Part shown: positions 4,924 to 41,904 of the stretch, piece by piece
Numbering within the stretch: position 1 is the first letter of the stretch
Layout of the letters: each line of letters begins with the position of its first letter
Assembly (NCBI RefSeq): GCF_023256195.1
Contig: NZ_JAGDWX010000025.1
Coordinates: 5,001 to 46,904, forward strand
Origin: Acidithiobacillus sp.
Lineage (GTDB): Bacteria > Pseudomonadota > Gammaproteobacteria > Acidithiobacillales > Acidithiobacillaceae
Direction: 5' to 3'
Length of the DNA stretch: 41,904 nt
Translations under genes and position numbers: made by a program
Notes under the pieces: model-generated
The model's input: only the letters and a program-made list of their open reading frames with translations
What the model was told of the DNA's origin: nothing
Database searches by the model: none

Positions 4924-7002
4924 TTGAGCATAGTGCGCAAGGAAGTGGATTTCGGTGGGCAGCGTCTCTGCCTGGAGACGGGAAGAATGGCACGCCAGGC
5001 GGACGGGGCGGTGCTGGTCACCCTGGGCGAGACCATGGTGTTGGTCACGGCCGTCGGTCGCCGTGAGTTGAAACCGGGACAGGATTTCTTTCCGTTGACG
5101 GTCAACTATCAGGAAAAGGCCTATGCCGCGGGTCGCATCCCCGGGGGCTTTTTCAAACGGGAGGGGCGTCCCAGTGAAAAGGAAACCCTGACCGCGCGCC
5201 TCATCGATCGTCCCATCCGGCCGCTGTTCCCCAAGGGCTTCATGCATGAGGTCCAGGTCATTGCCACGGTGCTGTCCGTGGATCAGGAAAACGACCCGGA
5301 TATCCCTGCCATGATCGGCGCCTCGGCAGCGCTGGCGATCTCCGGTATACCCTTTCAGGGTCCCATCGGCGCGGCAAGGGTGGGCTACGTGGACGGGCAG
5401 TTTGTCCTCAATCCGAGCTTTCAGACCCTGGCCCGCTCGCAGCTGGATCTGGTGGTGGCTGGAACGCGCCAAGCGGTGCTGATGGTGGAGTCGGAGGCCC
5501 AGGAACTGCCGGAGGAAACCATGCTGTCGGCGGTGATGTTCGGGCATGAATCCTTTCAGCCGGTCATCGCCTGTATCGAGGATCTGGCGGCCGAGGTGGG
5601 CAAGAGCCCCTGGGCCTGGCAGGCACCCAGCCTGGATCCGGCTCTGCAGGAGGCGATCTCGGCAGCAGCGCTGGAGCCTCTGCGCGAGGCGTATGGTCTC
5701 CTGGAGAAGCAGGCGCGCAGCAAGCGCCTCGACGAGATTCGCAGCGCCCTGCTGGAACAGTTCGGCGGTAGCTCCGGCGAGCATGGCGACGTGGTGCGTG
5801 CCGTGGTCAAGAAGTTGGAAACCCAGATCGTCCGCGGGCGGGTCCTGGAGGGAGCGCCGCGTATCGACGGCCGGGATCATGTCACGGTGCGGCCGATCCA
5901 GATCGAGGTGGGGATCATGCCCCGCACCCACGGCTCGGCCCTGTTTACCCGAGGTGAGACCCAGGCCCTGGTCATTGCCACTCTGGGCACCAAGGGCGAC
6001 GAACAGATCGTCGACGCCCTCCAGGGAGAAAGCCGCGACCGTTTCATGCTGCACTACAACTTTCCGCCCTTCTCGACGGGAGAGACGGGCATGGTGGGAT
6101 CTCCCAAGCGGCGAGAAATCGGCCATGGCCGGCTGGCCAAACGCGCCGTGGCGGCAGTGCTGCCCAGCGAGTCCGAGTTTCCCTACAGCTTGCGGGTGGT
6201 TTCGGAGATCCTCGAGTCCAACGGTTCCTCCAGCATGGCCACGGTCTGTGGCGCCTCGCTGGCCCTCATGGACGCCGGCGTACCGCTGAAGGCGCCGGTG
6301 GCGGGGGTGGCCATGGGCCTCATCAAGGATGGGGATCGCTACGCCGTCCTCACGGATATCCTGGGCGATGAAGACCACCTGGGTGATATGGATTTCAAGG
6401 TGGCGGGTACCCAGAATGGGGTCACCGCCCTGCAGATGGATATCAAGATCGATGGTATCACTCGGGAGATCATGGCAACGGCCTTGGAGCAGGCCCACGC
6501 CGGACGCCTGCACATACTCTCGCGGATGAATGCGGTGCTGGCGGAAGGCCGGTCGCAGCTGTCGGGCTACGCGCCACGCATCATCTCCATGCGTATCCAT
6601 CCCGATCGGATCCGCGATGTCATCGGACCCGGGGGCAAGGTCATCCGCGCTTTGACCGAGGAAACCGGAGCGACCATCGACATTCAGGACGACGGCACGG
6701 TGACCATCGCCTCGGTCAACGGGGAGGCGGGCGAGGCGGCGCGGCGACGTATCGAGCTGCTCACCGCGGATGTGGAAGTGGGCATGATCTACGATGGCAA
6801 GGTGGCCAAGATCATGGATTTCGGTGCCTTCGTCACCATCCTGCCGGGTCGCGACGGTCTGCTCCACATCTCGCAGATCAGCACGGAGCGGGTGAATGAC
6901 GTCCGCGACTATGTCAAGGAAGGACAGAGTGTGCGGGTCAAGGTGCTGGAAGTGGATCGTCAGGGCAAGATCAAGCTCAGCATGAAGGACATCGCCCAAT
7001 AG
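4924..7002 (+). CDS. pnp: Polyribonucleotide nucleotidyltransferase (PNPase)
   Basis: This protein of about 692 residues is the phosphorolytic 3'-to-5' exoribonuclease of the RNA degradosome. Two RNase PH-like domains are joined by a helical linker; the second contains the catalytic acidic stretch [20 protein letters not shown] domain with [10 protein letters not shown] lies near residue 568 and an S1 domain begins near 618. The start is not an ATG. I chose TTG 4924 because GAGGAG lies 6 bases upstream and the product then begins [12 protein letters not shown], aligning with the E. coli N terminus. In-frame GTG 4906 and TTG 4897 would add 6 or 9 residues. The gene follows rpsO by 51 bases. 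Confidence 0.96.
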
Positions 7003-7066
7003 ACAGCAGAGTGTTGGTGTCCCGCGTTCTGCTGGCGCGAGGTCCGCTGCCTTTCCCAGCAGGCTG

Positions 7067-8404
7067 GTGGTCTCTTGGCGGCGACGATTTGCCGTGGCCC
7101 GAGCCGTGAACGATACCCAGGCCCTGCGAACCGTTCTGAGTAACGGGATAATCCTGGTCAGCGAGACCCTGCCGGGGCGCCGGCAGGTGTCCCTGTCCAT
7201 TACCATCGCCCAGGGGAGCCGGCATCAGCAGGCCACGGACAACGGCTTTGCCCATCTTCTTGAGCACATGTTCTTCAAGGGCAGCCGGAGCTACACGGGA
7301 GAGGAGATCAATCGGCAGATCGAGCTGCTGGGTGGAGGCATCAACGCCTTCACCGATCGTGAGACCACGGTTCTGCACGGTACGGTTCTGGCTGAGGACG
7401 GGCGGCGCGCCTTTGCACTCCTCAGCGACATGTTGCTGTATCCGCAATGGACGGCGCGGGATCTCTACGCCGAGCGCGGCGTGGTGGCTCAGGAAGCGGC
7501 CATGGTTGCCGAGGACCTGGAAGATTGGCTGAATGAGCGAGCCATCGGCCGATTCTGGTCGGACTCGCCGCTGGCTTGGCCGGTGCTGGGCCGCGCCACC
7601 TGTATCCGCCGGGCAACTGCTGCACGTCTGCGGCAGTATCACGCGGCCATGTTGGCCGCCGCACCCATCGTCGTCACCGCCGTCGGCGCCATCACCCACG
7701 ACACCTTGCGCGACTGGGCCAGGCCTCTGGAGGCCTTGCCGCAGCGCCGGAAACTGCCGACGGTCCAGCCGCAGGCCAGCTACCTCCGTGGCGTCAGCCG
7801 CCGCACCGAGGCGCAGCAGGCCCACGCCTTGTGGTTGACGGAGGCGGCCGCTTTCGCGGCTCCGGAACATCTCCCCGAATTGCTGGCCAATCTCATCCTG
7901 GGTGGGGGCAGTGCATCGCGGCTCTTCCGCCACCTGCGCGATCGGCTGGGGCTCGCGTATCAGGTGTATTCGCAGGTAGAGGCCCTGAGCGATACGGGCG
8001 AGTGGAGCATCTATTGCGCGGTTCCGCCCGCGGCCTGGGCCCTTACCCGTCGAGAGGTCCTGCGCATTCTGCGCGAGTTGGCGGACGGTGGGCCAACCCT
8101 CGAAGAGTTCCAGTGGGCGCGGCATAGTCTGCGGGTGCAGTGGCTCCTGGGCCAGGGGGATCTGGAGATCCGTATGGCACGGCTTACCCGTCAGGCACTG
8201 TATCTCGGGCGTTGCCTCAGCGAAGCAGAGACCCTGGATGCCCTGGCCGATATTCGCGAGGATCAGATCCGTGCCGCCTTTGGTCGCTGGCAGCGGCATC
8301 TGGAATGGTCGTGCCAGCCAGCAATGTTTCAGCCACGGAAGCCATCTTTCCAGCGGCGCAGTGCGGCGAAGGTGGCGACGGATTCGGCAGCGGTATCCGG
8401 ATAG
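7067..8404 (+). CDS. M16-family zinc peptidase
   Basis: This protein of up to 445 residues belongs to the M16 (pitrilysin/processing-peptidase-like) family. The inverted zinc motif HLLEH is at residues 63-67, and a downstream Glu in RGVVAQEAAMVAED lies 76 residues after the second His, which is the family spacing for the third zinc ligand. The C-terminal half has the second M16 fold with LGGGSASRLFRHLRDRLGLAYQVYS, the usual Arg/Tyr substrate-binding region. Substrate is unknown, and no partner M16 gene lies beside it. The start is uncertain: GTG 7067 gives the longest protein, while GTG 7094 or 7106 would be equally acceptable, and none has a strong ribosome-binding site. It follows pnp by 64 bases. 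The last 76 bases overlap the convergent gloB gene. Confidence 0.88.
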   Translation: MVSWRRRFAVARAVNDTQALRTVLSNGIILVSETLPGRRQVSLSITIAQGSRHQQATDNGFAHLLEHMFFKGSRSYTGEEINRQIELLGGGINAFTDRETTVLHGTVLAEDGRRAFALLSDMLLYPQWTARDLYAERGVVAQEAAMVAEDLEDWLNERAIGRFWSDSPLAWPVLGRATCIRRATAARLRQYHAAMLAAAPIVVTAVGAITHDTLRDWARPLEALPQRRKLPTVQPQASYLRGVSRRTEAQQAHALWLTEAAAFAAPEHLPELLANLILGGGSASRLFRHLRDRLGLAYQVYSQVEALSDTGEWSIYCAVPPAAWALTRREVLRILRELADGGPTLEEFQWARHSLRVQWLLGQGDLEIRMARLTRQALYLGRCLSEAETLDALADIREDQIRAAFGRWQRHLEWSCQPAMFQPRKPSFQRRSAAKVATDSAAVSG

Positions 8405-36184: not shown

Positions 36185-36971
36185 GGCCGACTTCCTGTTC
36201 CCCGTGTGGGATCGTCCAGCCACGGTCCGGGCAGCCATCAGTCTGCGCACCGGTGGGTTCAGCACCGCACCCTTCGCCAGCTTCAATCTGGGGGATCACG
36301 TCGGTGACCGCCCAGAGCGAGTAGCCCGGAACCGAGCGCAGTTGCAGGAAGTGCTGGCCCTGCCCAACGCGCCTTGCTGGCTGCATCAGGTCCACGGTAC
36401 GCGCATCGTCAAGGTCCCGGAGGCGCCTGCGCACGGATGGTCGCCGCCGGAAGCCGATGGCGCCGTCTCTACCTGCCCCGGAGTAGTCCTCGGCATCCTC
36501 AGCGCCGACTGTCTGCCGGTACTCGCCTGTAGCCGGGATGGGCAGTGTATCGGTGCCTTTCACGCCGGCTGGCGCGGACTCCTGGCGGGAGTGCTGGAGC
36601 AGGGCATTGCCGCCATGGGCATTGCCGCCAAGGAAATTTTGGTATACTTGGGCCCGTCCATTGGACCGCGGCGCTACGAGGTCGGGGCCGAGCTGCGCGC
36701 GGCGTTTCTCGCCCAGGACCCCAGGACAGAGCCTTTCTTTGCGGCGGTCACGGCGGAGTCGGACGCGCAGCCTGGTAAGACGCCCAACGGAGACCGATTC
36801 TGGGCCGACCTTCCGGGCTTGGCACGCTACCGGCTCATGGCGCTGGGAGTGGCCTCGGTGGAGGCCTCGGGGCTGTGCACGGCAGAGGATGCGACGCGCT
36901 TCTTTTCCTACCGTCGGGATGGGCAGACGGGACGTATGGCAAGCCTGATCTGGAAGGAGGTAGGTGCATGA
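36174..36971 (+). CDS. pgeF: Purine nucleoside phosphorylase-like, polyphenol oxidase/peptidoglycan-editing family (YfiH)
   Basis: This 265-residue protein carries the family metal-binding residues: His74 in CWLHQVHG, Cys113 in SADCLPVLAC and His130 in GAFHAGWRGLLAGV, and the conserved IGPRRYEVG and FFSYRRDGQTGRMAS. Members were first called laccases; YfiH/FAMIN homologues have since been shown to cleave purine nucleosides, including S-methyl-5'-thioadenosine in the mammalian protein and some bacterial ones. ATG 36174 overlaps the rluD end by 11 bases, and the stop overlaps the mtnD ATG. That linkage makes a role in MTA cleavage worth testing; it is not proven by sequence. Confidence 0.9.
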   Translation: MATEADFLFPVWDRPATVRAAISLRTGGFSTAPFASFNLGDHVGDRPERVARNRAQLQEVLALPNAPCWLHQVHGTRIVKVPEAPAHGWSPPEADGAVSTCPGVVLGILSADCLPVLACSRDGQCIGAFHAGWRGLLAGVLEQGIAAMGIAAKEILVYLGPSIGPRRYEVGAELRAAFLAQDPRTEPFFAAVTAESDAQPGKTPNGDRFWADLPGLARYRLMALGVASVEASGLCTAEDATRFFSYRRDGQTGRMASLIWKEVGA

Positions 36972-37516
36972 AGGGGATGCAGTGGGGAAGTACCTCGGCG
37001 CACTCGGCTGTAGAAGATCCCACCGCCTTGCTGGCGAGCCTCGGCGTGGTCTGGGAACGGCTACCCCTGCCTGCAAGTTCCGAGGTTCAGGCCCTGTTGG
37101 CGCGCCCGACTCTGGACGCCGCCGAACAGGAAAGCTTGCTGCGCGCCCTCGACCCGGTCTTTCAACGCTTGCAGCGTGAGCGCGGCTACCGCGAGCGGGA
37201 CCTCGTGGTCCTGCACCCGGAACACCCGGATCTGGAGGCACTGGACCGGCGTTTTGGCGGCATCCATCGCCACGACGACGAGGAGGTCCGCTATATCGTC
37301 GACGGCGAGGGGGTCTTCGGCTTCGTCCTCGCCGACGGTCGCCAGCTGGAGCTGACGGTAGAGGGCGGCGACTACCTGCACGTGCCCGCCGGGGTCGAGC
37401 ACTGGTTCCGCCTGAACGGCCTGCGGCGGATCAAGGCCGTGCGTTATTTCAGCGCCCGCGGCGGCTGGACGCCGGTCTACGTCGACACGCCGCAGCAGGA
37501 CTTCCCACGGCCATGA
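36968..37516 (+). CDS. mtnD: Acireductone dioxygenase
   Basis: This 182-residue cupin oxidises the acireductone DHK-MTPene to 2-keto-4-methylthiobutyrate (and, with Ni, alternative products) in methionine salvage. The metal ligands are His100, His102 and Glu106 in IHRHDDEEVRYIVDG and His145 in VPAGVEHWF, with the same spacing as in Klebsiella ARD. ATG 36968 has GGAAGGAGG 7 bases upstream and overlaps the pgeF stop (ATGA). The stop overlaps the mtnW ATG. The metal cannot be predicted. Confidence 0.95.
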   Translation: MKGMQWGSTSAHSAVEDPTALLASLGVVWERLPLPASSEVQALLARPTLDAAEQESLLRALDPVFQRLQRERGYRERDLVVLHPEHPDLEALDRRFGGIHRHDDEEVRYIVDGEGVFGFVLADGRQLELTVEGGDYLHVPAGVEHWFRLNGLRRIKAVRYFSARGGWTPVYVDTPQQDFPRP

Positions 37517-38727
37517 TTCCGCCGGGAGACGATCGCTCCCGCGCCCTGCCGTCGGGGCATTCCTGGATCGAGGTGGATTATCGCTTCCCGCCCGGTACCG
37601 ACGGCGCACGGCAGGCGGACATGCTGGCGGTAGGGCAAACGGCGGGGAGCTGGGATGCCCGCTATCGTTATCGGGAAGCCCAGCTGCGCGGCCACCTGGG
37701 CGAGGTCCGGTGCCTGGAAACCCAGGACGACGGTAGCAGTATCGCTACCATCGCCTTTCCCCGCGCCAACCTCGACGGCTCCATCGGCGCCCTCCTCACC
37801 ATGATCTTCGGCAAGTATTCCCTGGGCGGCGCGGCCCGGATCTTGGCCCTGCGTCTGCCGGAGGATTATGGACTGCGACCACGCTTTGGTCTGGCGGGTC
37901 TGCGCCACCGACTGGGGATCCGGGATCGGCCCTTGTTCATGGCCATCTTCAAACCGGCTCTGGGCCTCGATGCCGCAGGCCACGCCGAGATCCTCGCCCA
38001 AGCAGCCATGGCGGGGCTCGATGTCATCAAGGACGACGAGATCCTGCCGGACCTCCCGGAGGCGCCGACCTTGGAACGCTGGCGCGCCTGTGCCCCCATC
38101 ATCGAGGCTCGGCGCGACCGCAGCGGCCACGATCTGCTTTATGCCGTGAATCTCTCGGGGGATGCCCACAGCTTGCAGGAGCAGGCCCGCCGTCTGGTGG
38201 AGGAGGGCGCCAACGCCCTGCTCCTCAATGTGCTTACCTACGGATATGCGGTGCTCGAGGCACTGGTCCGGGACCCGCAGGTGGACGTGCCCATCTTCGC
38301 CCATCCCGCCTTTGCCGGGGCACTCTGTGGCGCGCCGGAGCGGGGTCTCGCCTACGGCGTGGTCCTCGGCACCCTCATGGCCCACGCCGGTGCCGATGCC
38401 GTCCTCTATCCGGCGCATTACGGCAGCCTGCCCTTTGCCGCCGCCGATGAGGCAGCCATCGTCGCCGCCCTGCGCGCCCACGGTGTCGCGCCGGTACCTT
38501 CCGCGGGAGTCCAGCCCGGAACGGTGCCGCAGATCCTCGAGGACTACGGCAGTGAACTCATCCTCAATGCCGGGACGGGCATCATGGACCACCCGGACGG
38601 CATCGGCGCCGGGGTAATGGCCTTTTTCGAGGCTTGGGATCGCTGGCAGCGTGGCGAGTCTTTCGCCCGGGATGCCGTTCCCGCCGGGCCCCTGCGCCGC
38701 GCCCTGGAAAAGTGGGGTGGGGCGTGA
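37513..38727 (+). CDS. mtnW: RuBisCO-like protein, predicted 2,3-diketo-5-methylthiopentyl-1-phosphate enolase
   Basis: This 404-residue protein has a RuBisCO large-subunit fold. The carbamylated Lys and metal ligands are kept as Lys173, Asp175 and Glu176 in GLDVIKDDEIL, with KPALGL (Lys147) before it. But loop 6, which carries Lys334 in true RuBisCO, reads YPAHYGSLPFAAADE with no Lys, and PSAGVQPGTVPQIL replaces the RuBisCO SGGIH region, as in YkrW/MtnW-type form IV proteins. CO2 fixation is therefore not expected; enolisation in methionine salvage is. The genes on either side encode other steps of the same pathway, overlapping by 4 bases at each end. The GTG of mtnX overlaps its stop. Confidence 0.88.
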   Translation: MIPPGDDRSRALPSGHSWIEVDYRFPPGTDGARQADMLAVGQTAGSWDARYRYREAQLRGHLGEVRCLETQDDGSSIATIAFPRANLDGSIGALLTMIFGKYSLGGAARILALRLPEDYGLRPRFGLAGLRHRLGIRDRPLFMAIFKPALGLDAAGHAEILAQAAMAGLDVIKDDEILPDLPEAPTLERWRACAPIIEARRDRSGHDLLYAVNLSGDAHSLQEQARRLVEEGANALLLNVLTYGYAVLEALVRDPQVDVPIFAHPAFAGALCGAPERGLAYGVVLGTLMAHAGADAVLYPAHYGSLPFAAADEAAIVAALRAHGVAPVPSAGVQPGTVPQILEDYGSELILNAGTGIMDHPDGIGAGVMAFFEAWDRWQRGESFARDAVPAGPLRRALEKWGGA

Positions 38728-39365
38728 GCGGTCGTTGGATTTTCTGCGACTTCGACGGCACCATCGTCGAGGACGAGATCTTCGTGGCACTCCTGCGGCG
38801 TTTCGCGCCGGCCGAGTCGGAGCGTCTTCTACCGGAGATTTATGCGTTGCGTCTGAGCCTGCGCGATGGCTTGCGCCGTATTCTCGAGACCATCCCCAGC
38901 GATGCCTGGCCGCAGATGGAGGATTTCGTGCGCTCTTCCGCCCGCCTTCGTCACGGATTCGCCGAGTTCGCGCAGAAAGCTCAGGCGACGGGCTGGTCTC
39001 TTGCGGTGGTGACGGGAGGATTCCAGGCCATGGCCGAACTTGTGCTCGAGCCTTTCCGATCCGCCATCGCTGCGGTACACGGTCTGGAAGTGGACCGCAG
39101 CGGCGCTTTTCTGCGGCCCTTCTCGCCCTGGGAAGGAGACGGCGAGCTGGTAAGCAAGCCGGCGGTCTACGCCCACTACGCGCCGGACGCGGCCATCTGC
39201 ATCGGCGATTCCGTCACCGACCTCGCTCTGGCGCGGCAGTGTCCGCGCGTCTTTGCCCGCGACCGCCTGGCGGAATATCTGCAGCGCGAGGATCGGGCCT
39301 GGGAACGCTTCGATACCTTCTTCGATATCCTGCCTGCCCTGGAGCCCACCCATGCAGCGTCCTGA
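38724..39365 (+). CDS. mtnX: 2-hydroxy-3-keto-5-methylthiopentenyl-1-phosphate phosphatase
   Basis: This 213-residue HAD-family phosphatase has motif I FCDFDGTIVEDEI with nucleophile Asp9 and acid/base Asp11, motif II in VVTGGF, Lys in LVSKPAVYAHY, and motif III ICIGDSVTDLALA. In methionine salvage it removes the phosphate from the enolase product. The GTG at 38724 overlaps the mtnW stop (GTGA). The frame upstream of it lies within mtnW. MtnW plus MtnX replace the bifunctional MtnC used by many proteobacteria. Substrate is assigned from context; other HAD substrates are possible. Confidence 0.88.
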   Translation: MSGRWIFCDFDGTIVEDEIFVALLRRFAPAESERLLPEIYALRLSLRDGLRRILETIPSDAWPQMEDFVRSSARLRHGFAEFAQKAQATGWSLAVVTGGFQAMAELVLEPFRSAIAAVHGLEVDRSGAFLRPFSPWEGDGELVSKPAVYAHYAPDAAICIGDSVTDLALARQCPRVFARDRLAEYLQREDRAWERFDTFFDILPALEPTHAAS

Positions 39366-39987
39366 GTCCCACGACGATCCCCGCACCATGCTCGCCGCCA
39401 GCGCGCGGGAATTCTATCGCCGCGGCTGGATGCTGGGCACGGCCGGCAATCTCTCGGCCCGCCTCCCGGACCATAGCTTTTGGATCACGGCCAGCGGGCG
39501 TCCCAAGGACTTGCTGACGGAGGCGGATTTTGTCCGTCTCGATGCTTCCGGTCGGGTCCTGGAGGCCGCAGACGGCCGTCGCCCCTCGGCGGAGGCGGCC
39601 ATCCACCAGGTCCTTTATCGGCATTTTGCAGAGGCCCGTTGGGTCTTTCACGTCCATTCCGTCGAGGCCAACCTTTGCGGCCATTTTGCCCGCGACGGGG
39701 CGCTGCGCCTGCCGCCGCTGGAGATGCTGAAGGGTCTAGGGGTGGCAGAGGCGGAACCGGAGGTCTTTCTGCCGGTCTTTCCCAACTTCGTCGACGTGGC
39801 GGCCATCGCGGCGGCCATGGACGAAACTTTTACCCGGCAACGGCCGCGTGTGCCCGGTGTGCTTATCCATCGCCACGGACTGACGGCCTGGGGCAGCGAC
39901 GCCCACGCCGCCCGGCACCATCTGGAGCTGCTGGAGTATTGTTTTCGTTATCTGGTTCAGGCCCGTAGTCTTGCCCTAGGAGAATGA
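39352..39987 (+). CDS. mtnB: Methylthioribulose-1-phosphate dehydratase
   Basis: This 211-residue class II aldolase/adducin-fold metalloenzyme dehydrates 5-methylthioribulose-1-phosphate to the diketo compound used by MtnW. Zinc ligands are His100 and His102 (WVFHVHSVEAN) and His in VLIHRHGLTAWG; GTAGNLSARL near residue 29 and SAEAAIHQVLYRHF are also conserved. ATG 39352 has GGAG 7 bases upstream and overlaps the mtnX end by 14 bases. The frame continues 5' but only within mtnX. Fuculose- or ribulose-phosphate aldolase functions are less likely given the neighbours. Confidence 0.9.
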   Translation: MQRPESHDDPRTMLAASAREFYRRGWMLGTAGNLSARLPDHSFWITASGRPKDLLTEADFVRLDASGRVLEAADGRRPSAEAAIHQVLYRHFAEARWVFHVHSVEANLCGHFARDGALRLPPLEMLKGLGVAEAEPEVFLPVFPNFVDVAAIAAAMDETFTRQRPRVPGVLIHRHGLTAWGSDAHAARHHLELLEYCFRYLVQARSLALGE

Positions 39988-39988
39988 A

Positions 39989-40510
39989 ATGAGCCAAGCC
40001 TTGTTGACGGTCATCGGCGAGGACCGCCCCGGTATCGTCGCTGCCGTGACCCAAGCCCTCCACACCGCCGACTGCGCCATCGGCGACGCCTCCATGATGC
40101 GCCTCGGAGGCTACTTCACCATCATGCAGATCATCCACTACAGCCGCGATCTCGGCACCGTGGAGACGGCCTTGGACCCGGCCATGAAAGCCCTCAACCT
40201 GCGCATCCATCTGGACCCTATATCCAGCGCGCCGGCGGCCGCGGACGAGGCCAACGTGCGGGTGACCGTCTACGGTGCCGACCACGCCGGTATCGTTGCC
40301 AGCGTCACCCAGGCCTTGGCCTCGGTGCACTTCAATATCGTCGAGCTGGAGAGCGAGCAGTCCGGCAATCCGGAGCGTCCCATCTATGTCATGGTGATCC
40401 AGGGCTCGGCGCCCGGTGGGCTTGCCGAGGTTCGCGAGGTGCTGGAGCCCCTCAAGAGCCGTGAGGCCATCGAGATCGGGGTACATCCCATCGATACGGC
40501 GATGTTCTGA
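39989..40510 (+). CDS. Double-ACT-domain protein, GcvR-like
   Basis: This 173-residue protein consists of two ACT domains: one begins LLTVIGEDRPGIVAAVTQAL and the other VRVTVYGADHAGIVASVTQAL. It resembles the GcvR family, whose E. coli member represses the glycine cleavage operon with GcvA, but many homologues have no known function. ATG 39989 follows TAGGAGA and lies 1 base after the mtnB stop. Being fused in transcription to methionine salvage and to def is unusual and could point to amino-acid sensing; the ligand cannot be read from the sequence. Confidence 0.82.
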   Translation: MSQALLTVIGEDRPGIVAAVTQALHTADCAIGDASMMRLGGYFTIMQIIHYSRDLGTVETALDPAMKALNLRIHLDPISSAPAAADEANVRVTVYGADHAGIVASVTQALASVHFNIVELESEQSGNPERPIYVMVIQGSAPGGLAEVREVLEPLKSREAIEIGVHPIDTAMF

Positions 40511-40512
40511 CC

Positions 40513-41031
40513 ATGGCCGTGCTCCCCATCCTGACCTACCCCGATCCGCGCCTGCATCGCAAGGCGCAGCCCGTGGAGCAGTTCGACGAGGAACTACGGC
40601 GATTCGTTGCCGATCTTACCGAAACCATGTACGCCGGTCCCGGTGGGGTCGGGATTGCGGCGCCGCAAGTAGACCGTCTGCAGCGGATCGTACTGGTGGA
40701 CGTGCGGTCAAAGCTGGGCGACGACTGCCACGGTTTTCTCTGCCTCATCAATCCCGAACTCATCGCCTGGGAGGGCATGGCGGTGGGACGGGAGGGCTGC
40801 ATGTCCGTGCCCGATTTTACCGGGAATGTCATCCGTGCCGAGCGCATCCGGGTGCAGGCCCAGGATCTGGACGGACGTAGCCGTGTATACGAGTGCGCGG
40901 GTTTCGAAGCCCGCGCGGTGCAGCACGAGATGGACCACCTGGACGGTTTTCTCTTTCTGGACCGGCTCGTCTCGCGCAAGACCGATCTTTTTCGGCGCAA
41001 GAATTACCAGAAAAAAGAGTCCAAGGCCTAA
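40513..41031 (+). CDS. def: Peptide deformylase
   Basis: This 172-residue metallohydrolase removes the formyl group from the N-terminal Met of new proteins. All three motifs are present: GVGIAAPQ near 45-52, REGCMSVP with metal ligand Cys96, and QHEMDHLDG with His138, Glu139 and His142. The C terminus is basic (RRKNYQKKESKA). ATG 40513 lies 2 bases after the ACT-protein stop. It is usually next to fmt; here it ends the mtn operon and is likely one of more than one def gene, though no other is in the window. Confidence 0.95.
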   Translation: MAVLPILTYPDPRLHRKAQPVEQFDEELRRFVADLTETMYAGPGGVGIAAPQVDRLQRIVLVDVRSKLGDDCHGFLCLINPELIAWEGMAVGREGCMSVPDFTGNVIRAERIRVQAQDLDGRSRVYECAGFEARAVQHEMDHLDGFLFLDRLVSRKTDLFRRKNYQKKESKA

Positions 41032-41184
41032 GGCAATCGCCTCCGTTCGCGTTCGCTGTCGGGTGGCGACGTGTCCATTTCCAATCGGTCGCTCCGGTGC
41101 CGCGCTGAGTATCCACCGGGAGCATAAAAAAGCCCCAACCGAGGTTGGGGCTTCAAGCGGGGCGAGAGAACTGGACCTACGCGA
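41032..41184. other. Spacer between def and the DUF1641-like gene
   Basis: This 153-base convergent gap contains no gene that I can support. Its only clear element is the hairpin at 41125-41152 described separately. The sequence left of it (41032-41120) is GC-rich without repeats or motifs I recognise. Confidence 0.6.
41125..41152 (-). terminator. Intrinsic terminator of the DUF1641-like gene
   Basis: AGCCCCAAC and GTTGGGGCT form a 9-base stem around CGAG (41131-41152). Read on the minus strand it is followed by a T run (the A run at 41126-41131), a strong factor-independent terminator 33 bases after the gene's stop codon. On the plus strand it follows def but lacks a good T run, so any def termination here would be weaker. 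Confidence 0.85.
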
Positions 41185-41904
41185 TCAGTGCTTGAGCTGG
41201 CAGGAGCGGAAGTGCTTGCCCACCAGCATGAGGAACTGGATGGTCTGCTGGGTCTCGGGCTGCTTCATGATCTCCCACAGACCGGCGATTCCGCCTTTGG
41301 GTGGCGGAGCTTTGCTGGCCTCTGCCGCGGCGCCCTCCAGACACTGCAGAAAGTCCGTCAGGATGTGCTGCTGATCCAGTTGCTCCGCGACGTTCAGCAG
41401 GCGGTCCATCACGCCCGTGCGGGTAGCCCGGTCCAGGAGACAGAGGGCGTCGGTGGCGAGGCCGGCCAGACGCCCGACCATCTCGTCGTTCAGGGAGTCA
41501 CCCGCGGCCCCCATCATCCGCGCCAGATGCACGATGCGATCGAGGTCGCCGTTGTGGACCAGGGCGGAGATGGCCGGCAGGGCATCCTTGAGTTCGCTGC
41601 GGTTGACGCGATCCAGGAGGTCGAGGCCATCGCTGGCCACCCCGGCCAGGCGCCCGACCATCTCGTCGCTCAGGGAGTCACCCGCGGCCCCCATCATCCG
41701 CGCCAGATGCACGATGCGATCGAGGTCGCCGTTGTGGACCAGGGCGGAGATGGCCGGCAGGGCATCCTTGAGTTCGCTGCGGTTGACGCGATCCAGGAGG
41801 TCGAGGCCATCGCTGGCCACCCCGGCCAGGCGCCCGACCATCTCGTCGCTCAGGGAGTCACCCGCGGCCCCCATCATCCGCGCCAGATGCACGATGCGAT
41901 CGAG
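41185..41904 (-). CDS. DUF1641-like repeat protein, 3' part (5' end outside window)
   Basis: The frame is open from the window edge to the stop at 41185, 239 residues. The C terminus GIAGLWEIMKQPETQQTIQF and LMLVGKHF resembles DUF1641 proteins, which in sulfur oxidisers occur beside sulfide:quinone reductase or heterodisulfide-reductase-like genes; function is not established. Before it lie tandem 60-residue units, each with the stretch ARMMGAAGDSLSDEMVGRLA and SELKDALPAISALVHNGDLD; two are identical, a third is partly diverged (LNDEMVGRLAGLATDAL), and another begins at the edge. The GTG at 41892 is inside a repeat and is not a credible start. Periodicity and composition suggest stacked amphipathic helices. 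Confidence 0.75.
   Translation of the reverse strand, partial: LDRIVHLARMMGAAGDSLSDEMVGRLAGVASDGLDLLDRVNRSELKDALPAISALVHNGDLDRIVHLARMMGAAGDSLSDEMVGRLAGVASDGLDLLDRVNRSELKDALPAISALVHNGDLDRIVHLARMMGAAGDSLNDEMVGRLAGLATDALCLLDRATRTGVMDRLLNVAEQLDQQHILTDFLQCLEGAAAEASKAPPPKGGIAGLWEIMKQPETQQTIQFLMLVGKHFRSCQLKH
41461..41904 (-). repeat. 180-base tandem repeat array within the DUF1641-like gene
   Basis: The sequence repeats with a 180-base period. Bases 41521-41724 are identical to 41701-41904 (204 bases), so two complete units (41521-41700 and 41701-41880) and the first 24 bases of another show no difference. The left flank 41461-41520 matches 41641-41700 with 3 mismatches before similarity fades. 180 is a multiple of 3, so copies keep the frame. 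The array continues beyond the window. Confidence 0.95.

Follow-up and report, generated by a model that had tools for sequence, protein, structure and literature searches.

The 3' Part of a Repeat Gene Lies at the End of a Contig

The window, that is, the whole stretch of 41,904 nucleotides that was analyzed, corresponds to positions 5001 to 46904 of contig C15 of the Acidithiobacillus genome G000. On its plus strand, a run of ARD/cupin, RuBisCO-large-like, HAD and class II aldolase domain genes (36968-39984) resembles a methionine-salvage cluster that includes a RuBisCO-like protein. A two-ACT-domain-like (GcvR-type) gene and a peptide deformylase-like gene, as read from their translations, follow on the same strand (39989-41031) and are convergent with the last gene of the window. 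Ahead of the window, the first bases of contig C15 (L004:1-240) read as N.

The last gene, here called the repeat gene, runs on the minus strand and consists of 60-codon units followed by a C-terminal tail (Table 1). Its reading frame is open across all units to the stop codon at 41185-41187. Contig C15 is 46904 bases long, so the end of the window is the end of the contig; because this end lies inside the array, the array was cut by the assembly, which does not reveal how many identical copies there are.

Table 1. Features of the repeat gene and its downstream region in the window
Feature	Position	Strand	Remarks
3' part of the repeat gene (239 codons and stop)	41185..41904	-	5' end on contig C36
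Hybrid unit H, copy 1, 60 codons	41725..41904	-	
Hybrid unit H, copy 2	41545..41724	-	DNA identical to copy 1
Terminal unit T	41365..41544	-	First ~83 bases (41462-41544) near-identical to H, rest diverged
C-terminal tail	41188..41364	-	DUF1641-like GG-x2-GL-x3-K-x-PETQ motif; basic end GKHFRSCQLKH
Sub-threshold PF07849 match in the tail	41212-41313	-	
Terminator-like hairpin, then T run, downstream of the repeat gene	41129..41154	-	Consensus match only

A preliminary description of this DNA had noted perfect 180-base in-frame tandem repeats, and these were recovered by Tandem Repeats Finder (period 180, 2.5 copies, 99% match, 41462-41904). When the gene is followed along the minus strand from the end of the window, 235 bases in a row are identical at a shift of 180 bases, third codon positions included. 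This span comprises two whole units and 55 bases of a third unit, beyond which the copies diverge; across its 180 bases the third unit (T) is 74% identical to H. The identity of the two H copies is far above chance and exceeds the level usual in the family. For comparison, units 1 and 2 of three-unit relatives from the same family are 76-84% identical, and the highest identity within the class sample was 89%.

The Repeat Gene Starts Directly Downstream of sqr

The N-terminus of the repeat gene (38 codons) opens another contig of the same genome, C36 (L003:1-114, minus strand), in agreement with the earlier suspicion of an assembly break within the array. Directly upstream lies sqr, the gene for a sulfide:quinone oxidoreductase (SQR; L003:127-1341, minus strand), separated by a gap of 12 bp that carries a GGAGGTG site. 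The encoded SQR was assigned to Pyr_redox_2 by Pfam, and its top match in the Protein Data Bank (PDB) was a human-mitochondrial-type SQR. About 25 residues follow the region of SQR that aligns with human SQOR, compared with about 56 in SQOR, and the part of SQOR past that aligned region binds the membrane. Most likely, sqr, the 12-bp gap, the repeat gene and the terminator are expressed as one operon. The surroundings had been expected to hold sulfide or heterodisulfide metabolism genes; the first half of this expectation was borne out by the adjoining sqr, whereas no heterodisulfide-reductase gene was noticed on reading 18.8 kb of C36. Some 14 kb upstream of sqr, C36 also carries a TonB-dependent receptor-like gene (L003:15962-18322, minus strand).

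The 30 bases of the first unit that are visible on C36 match the first unit of G001, a same-genus genome used as reference, at 27/30 positions and H at 24/30. Because they fit the G001 first unit better than H, the array is ordered first unit, H, H, T, and has at least four units as assembled. Alternatively, the true array might consist of the first unit, H and the terminal unit, the assembler having walked a 180-base loop twice. The contig indeed ends within the array, and a collapsed repeat would give such a loop if the unseen tail of the first unit were the same as that of H. However, a plain unitig cannot hold the same 180 bases twice, and read or coverage support was probably used; moreover, unit changes occur in many relatives, including the single-contig chromosomes G004, G008 and G018. 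We consider an assembly loop unlikely, and at least three units would remain even then, given that H differs both from T and from the visible head of the first unit.

Unit H Is a Chimera, Probably Formed by Unequal Crossing-Over

In order to trace the origin of H, its two parts were compared with the possible parents. Bases 1-75 of H are identical to its own T at 73/75 positions and to the G001 first unit at 59/75, whereas for bases 76-180 the relation is inverted (61/105 to T and 93/105 to the G001 first unit). With a single breakpoint at about base 83, 168 of the 180 bases are accounted for, compared with 152 if the best parent is taken without a break; a chimera in the opposite order brought no gain. 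Among the informative sites, 54/62 fit the chimera, and none of 100,000 permutations was as good. This pattern shows that H combines the head of the last unit with the tail of a first-type unit. The same hybrid is carried by L075 from another family of the class, with a head 97% identical to T, a tail 96% identical to unit 1 and 64/69 informative sites that fit. The single unit of G003 has the converse composition, a first-unit head joined to a T tail, as expected of the reciprocal deletion product (65/75 informative sites, compared with G015).

Since the hybrid unit and the reciprocal deletion unit are the two expected products of unequal crossing-over, these sequences indicate that units are gained and lost by this process within the shared head. 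Gene conversion could form the hybrid but could not change the number of units. Third-position differences between the two H copies amount to 0/60, compared with 42% between T plus tail and their G001 counterpart and 22% between the SQR genes of both genomes, which places the duplication of H well after the divergence from G001. The very recent duplication proposed earlier was thus upheld as to its age, but the duplicated unit is no plain copy of its neighbor, being a chimera made, in all probability, by crossing-over.

Whole-unit steps, hybrid junction units and a reciprocal deletion product are features shared with repeat proteins that evolve by unequal crossing-over in general; the present case differs from these in that it concerns a probable partner of a respiratory enzyme. 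No earlier description of such a case came up in the literature searched for SQR together with tandem repeats, unequal crossing and Acidithiobacillus.

The Number of Units Varies in Exact Steps of 60 Residues

Matches to the repeat gene were found in 25/29 genomes of the family, and the named loci with the same profile belong to Acidithiobacillus and Igneacidithiobacillus. Complete genes of the family encode one unit (148 aa, G003), two units (207-213 aa) or three units (267 aa), and every length step between them is exactly 60 residues. The G003 gene is identical in sequence to L059 from Acidithiobacillus ferrianus. In the class sample, relatives were detected in 26 of 369 genomes and in 20 of 272 genera. 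At all 18 class loci inspected outside the family, an SQR gene lies directly beside the repeat gene, its product being 57-75% identical to the SQR beside the window gene. These loci hold one, two, three or four units, again in exact 60-residue steps. The predicted variation in length was thereby found between species, and the fixed number of diverged copies that would have spoken against it was not seen in the relatives.

The repeat gene is duplicated in G004 (L012/L032), G008 (L021/L034), G018 (L022/L035), G002 (L016/L033) and G006 (L024/L036). Where the flanks sufficed, sqr was seen beside both copies, which are identical or nearly so and have equal unit numbers.

Mapped onto a tree of 36 SQR proteins, the number of units shifts at least nine times and in both directions, a figure that is approximate because the tree came from a quick search in which 13/33 inner branches were weak. 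Counts are constant in several clades, with three units in one Acidithiobacillus group and one unit in a clade of seven genomes. Single-unit genes are common across the class sample, so the extra units are not essential. The unit number could accordingly be neutral, in that any count from one upward works and recombination lets it drift, the enzyme being unaffected. The movement of the count in both directions, the sufficiency of one unit in many genera and the fact that crossing-over yields in-frame changes automatically all speak for neutrality. The constant counts in several clades point the other way, although they can be accommodated by it. We regard neutrality as a serious possibility, if short of probable; it is compatible with the core function proposed below.

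The C-Terminal Tail Is Remotely Related to DUF1641

The gene had been described as DUF1641-like. On the gene alone, the Pfam model PF07849 (DUF1641), a 39-residue motif, scored 11.9 bits, below the gathering cut-off of 21 bits, and on two relatives 14.8-14.9 bits, also below it; scans of the gene alone with Pfam and NCBIfam gave no family above cut-off. Among 24 aligned relatives PF07849 was nevertheless the most frequent match (9/24 at E < 0.1, best 2.7e-5). Weak matches to AbiEi_4, DUF3251 and further families were dismissed as noise from helical repeats. When 150 genomes of the phylum were scanned with PF07849, the sole match was the true member of this very genome, which indicates that the short model misses the repeat-gene family.

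Profile-profile comparison of the repeat-gene family with true DUF1641 proteins gave a probability of 97.3% (E 2.1e-11, score 77), compared with scores of at most 24 for column shuffles and about 20-22 for reversed profiles. The tail alone matched DUF1641 with a probability of 96.9%, the repeat-unit part alone with 59% (E 9e-5). By these comparisons the C-terminal tail is remotely homologous to DUF1641, so that the earlier label holds for the tail at the level of profiles and failed for the single gene at the Pfam cut-off. The repeat unit, with its weaker match, may be a duplicated piece of a DUF1641 protein.

The true DUF1641 gene of the genome, the only one above cut-off, is located on contig C11 (299 aa, 27 bits), directly downstream of a second SQR-like gene; the two genes lie at L040:5717-6616 and 6713-7891. 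Genes of this type occur in 21/29 family genomes. Where they matched at all, the window SQR and the SQR-like genes beside the C11 paralogue were about 20% identical. The position of the repeat gene next to a quinone-linked oxidoreductase is typical of described DUF1641 members, a feature that lies outside the Pfam definition. Judged by title, none of the papers found that name DUF1641 concerns Acidithiobacillus or SQR.

Predicted Structure and Comparison with Known Coupling Proteins

Both AlphaFold models, one for the window protein and one for the single-unit relative, were all-helical and of low confidence (pTM 0.28 and 0.30), with predicted helices of about 42 and 13 residues per unit. To this low-confidence extent the prediction agrees with the helical repeat protein suggested earlier. 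A Foldseek search of the PDB with these models gave no match to any solved fold; a monomer may be the wrong thing to model if the protein functions as an oligomer or within a complex. The H segment LSDEMVGRLAGVASDGLDLLDRVNR is amphipathic (moment 1.51, compared with 0.59 for shuffled sequences, p 0.0025).

The true DUF1641 profile matched YjlC (PDB entry 9snk, E 1.4e-4) and the entry 9pxk, "NDH-2 membrane coupling protein" (E 2.7e-4). The window family's own profile gave marginal matches (E 0.03-0.1) to HucM, YjlC and the coupling protein, which stood among designed helical repeat proteins. YjlC of Bacillus subtilis (9snk, 9pxk) is a small helical DUF1641-type partner of a flavoprotein that shares its broad class with SQR, and this flavoprotein, YjlD/NDH-2, is a weak match to the window SQR. 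However, YjlC itself matches the repeat-gene family only marginally (E 0.041), its solved chain of 140 residues showed no variable ladder of 60-residue units, and its partner is NDH-2 rather than SQR.

ForE (YjgD/YrhD) of the B. subtilis ForCE complex likewise has a DUF1641 domain, carries no cofactor and is encoded in an operon with its oxidoreductase; it is required for formate:menadione activity and most likely for the binding of menaquinone by ForC (PMC8808070). It differs in its partner, a molybdenum formate dehydrogenase, and has a mass of 17-21 kDa. HucM of the Huc hydrogenase (PDB entry 7uus) is elongated and helical, with amphipathic helices forming a hydrophobically lined stalk whose basic end faces the membrane (PMC10017518), and shows a marginal profile match with the window tail region (E 0.033). 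Here the partner is a [NiFe] hydrogenase, and the tetrameric tube is a feature of HucM's own.

A Putative Coupling Partner of SQR

Starting from the observed gene order, repeat ladder, chimeras and remote DUF1641 homology, the repeat gene somewhat probably encodes a small helical partner of SQR, with a DUF1641-like tail for membrane or quinone coupling, a spacer of adjustable length and units that recombine. Modelled on the DUF1641 partners of other oxidoreductases, the tail would help to anchor the SQR flavoprotein to the membrane, to transfer its electrons to quinone, or both, which would imply binding to SQR. By analogy with these partners, membrane or quinone coupling of SQR is the most likely role. 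The 60-residue units ahead of the tail would form a helical spacer or scaffold, a role suggested less strongly than the coupling itself. Unequal crossing-over between the similar heads of the first and last units would add or remove whole 180-base units; in this genome it would have made the hybrid unit, whose duplication followed very recently.

Alternatively, the protein could help SQR in another way, for example as a chaperone, an assembly factor or a carrier of the polysulfide product. The case for coupling is built on gene order and remote homology, and DUF1641 is defined by a motif of just 39 residues, which leaves room for such functions. Against them, the described DUF1641 partners serve quinone or membrane coupling, the genome pairs its true DUF1641 gene with another SQR-like gene, and, as to a sulfur carrier in particular, the alignment across the class showed no evident pair of conserved cysteines. 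A helper of this kind appears unlikely compared with the preferred coupling role. A further extension of the coupling model, which we consider improbable, is that the repeat number acts as a genetically adjustable ruler, each unit lengthening a stalk or adding a docking site between SQR and the quinone pool of the membrane, with recombination tuning the number between lineages or even strains.

New here are the exact class-wide ladder, the recombination mechanism deduced from the chimeras and the connection with SQR coupling partners of the DUF1641 type. The locus shows what appears to be unequal crossing-over in the act within an operon of core energy metabolism, and the natural versions with one, two, three and four units form a length series for probing the putative spacer. 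As a conserved, length-variable operon partner of SQR with remote kinship to the coupling proteins of NDH-2 and formate dehydrogenase, the repeat protein is a concrete candidate for the means by which many SQR types may reach the membrane quinone.
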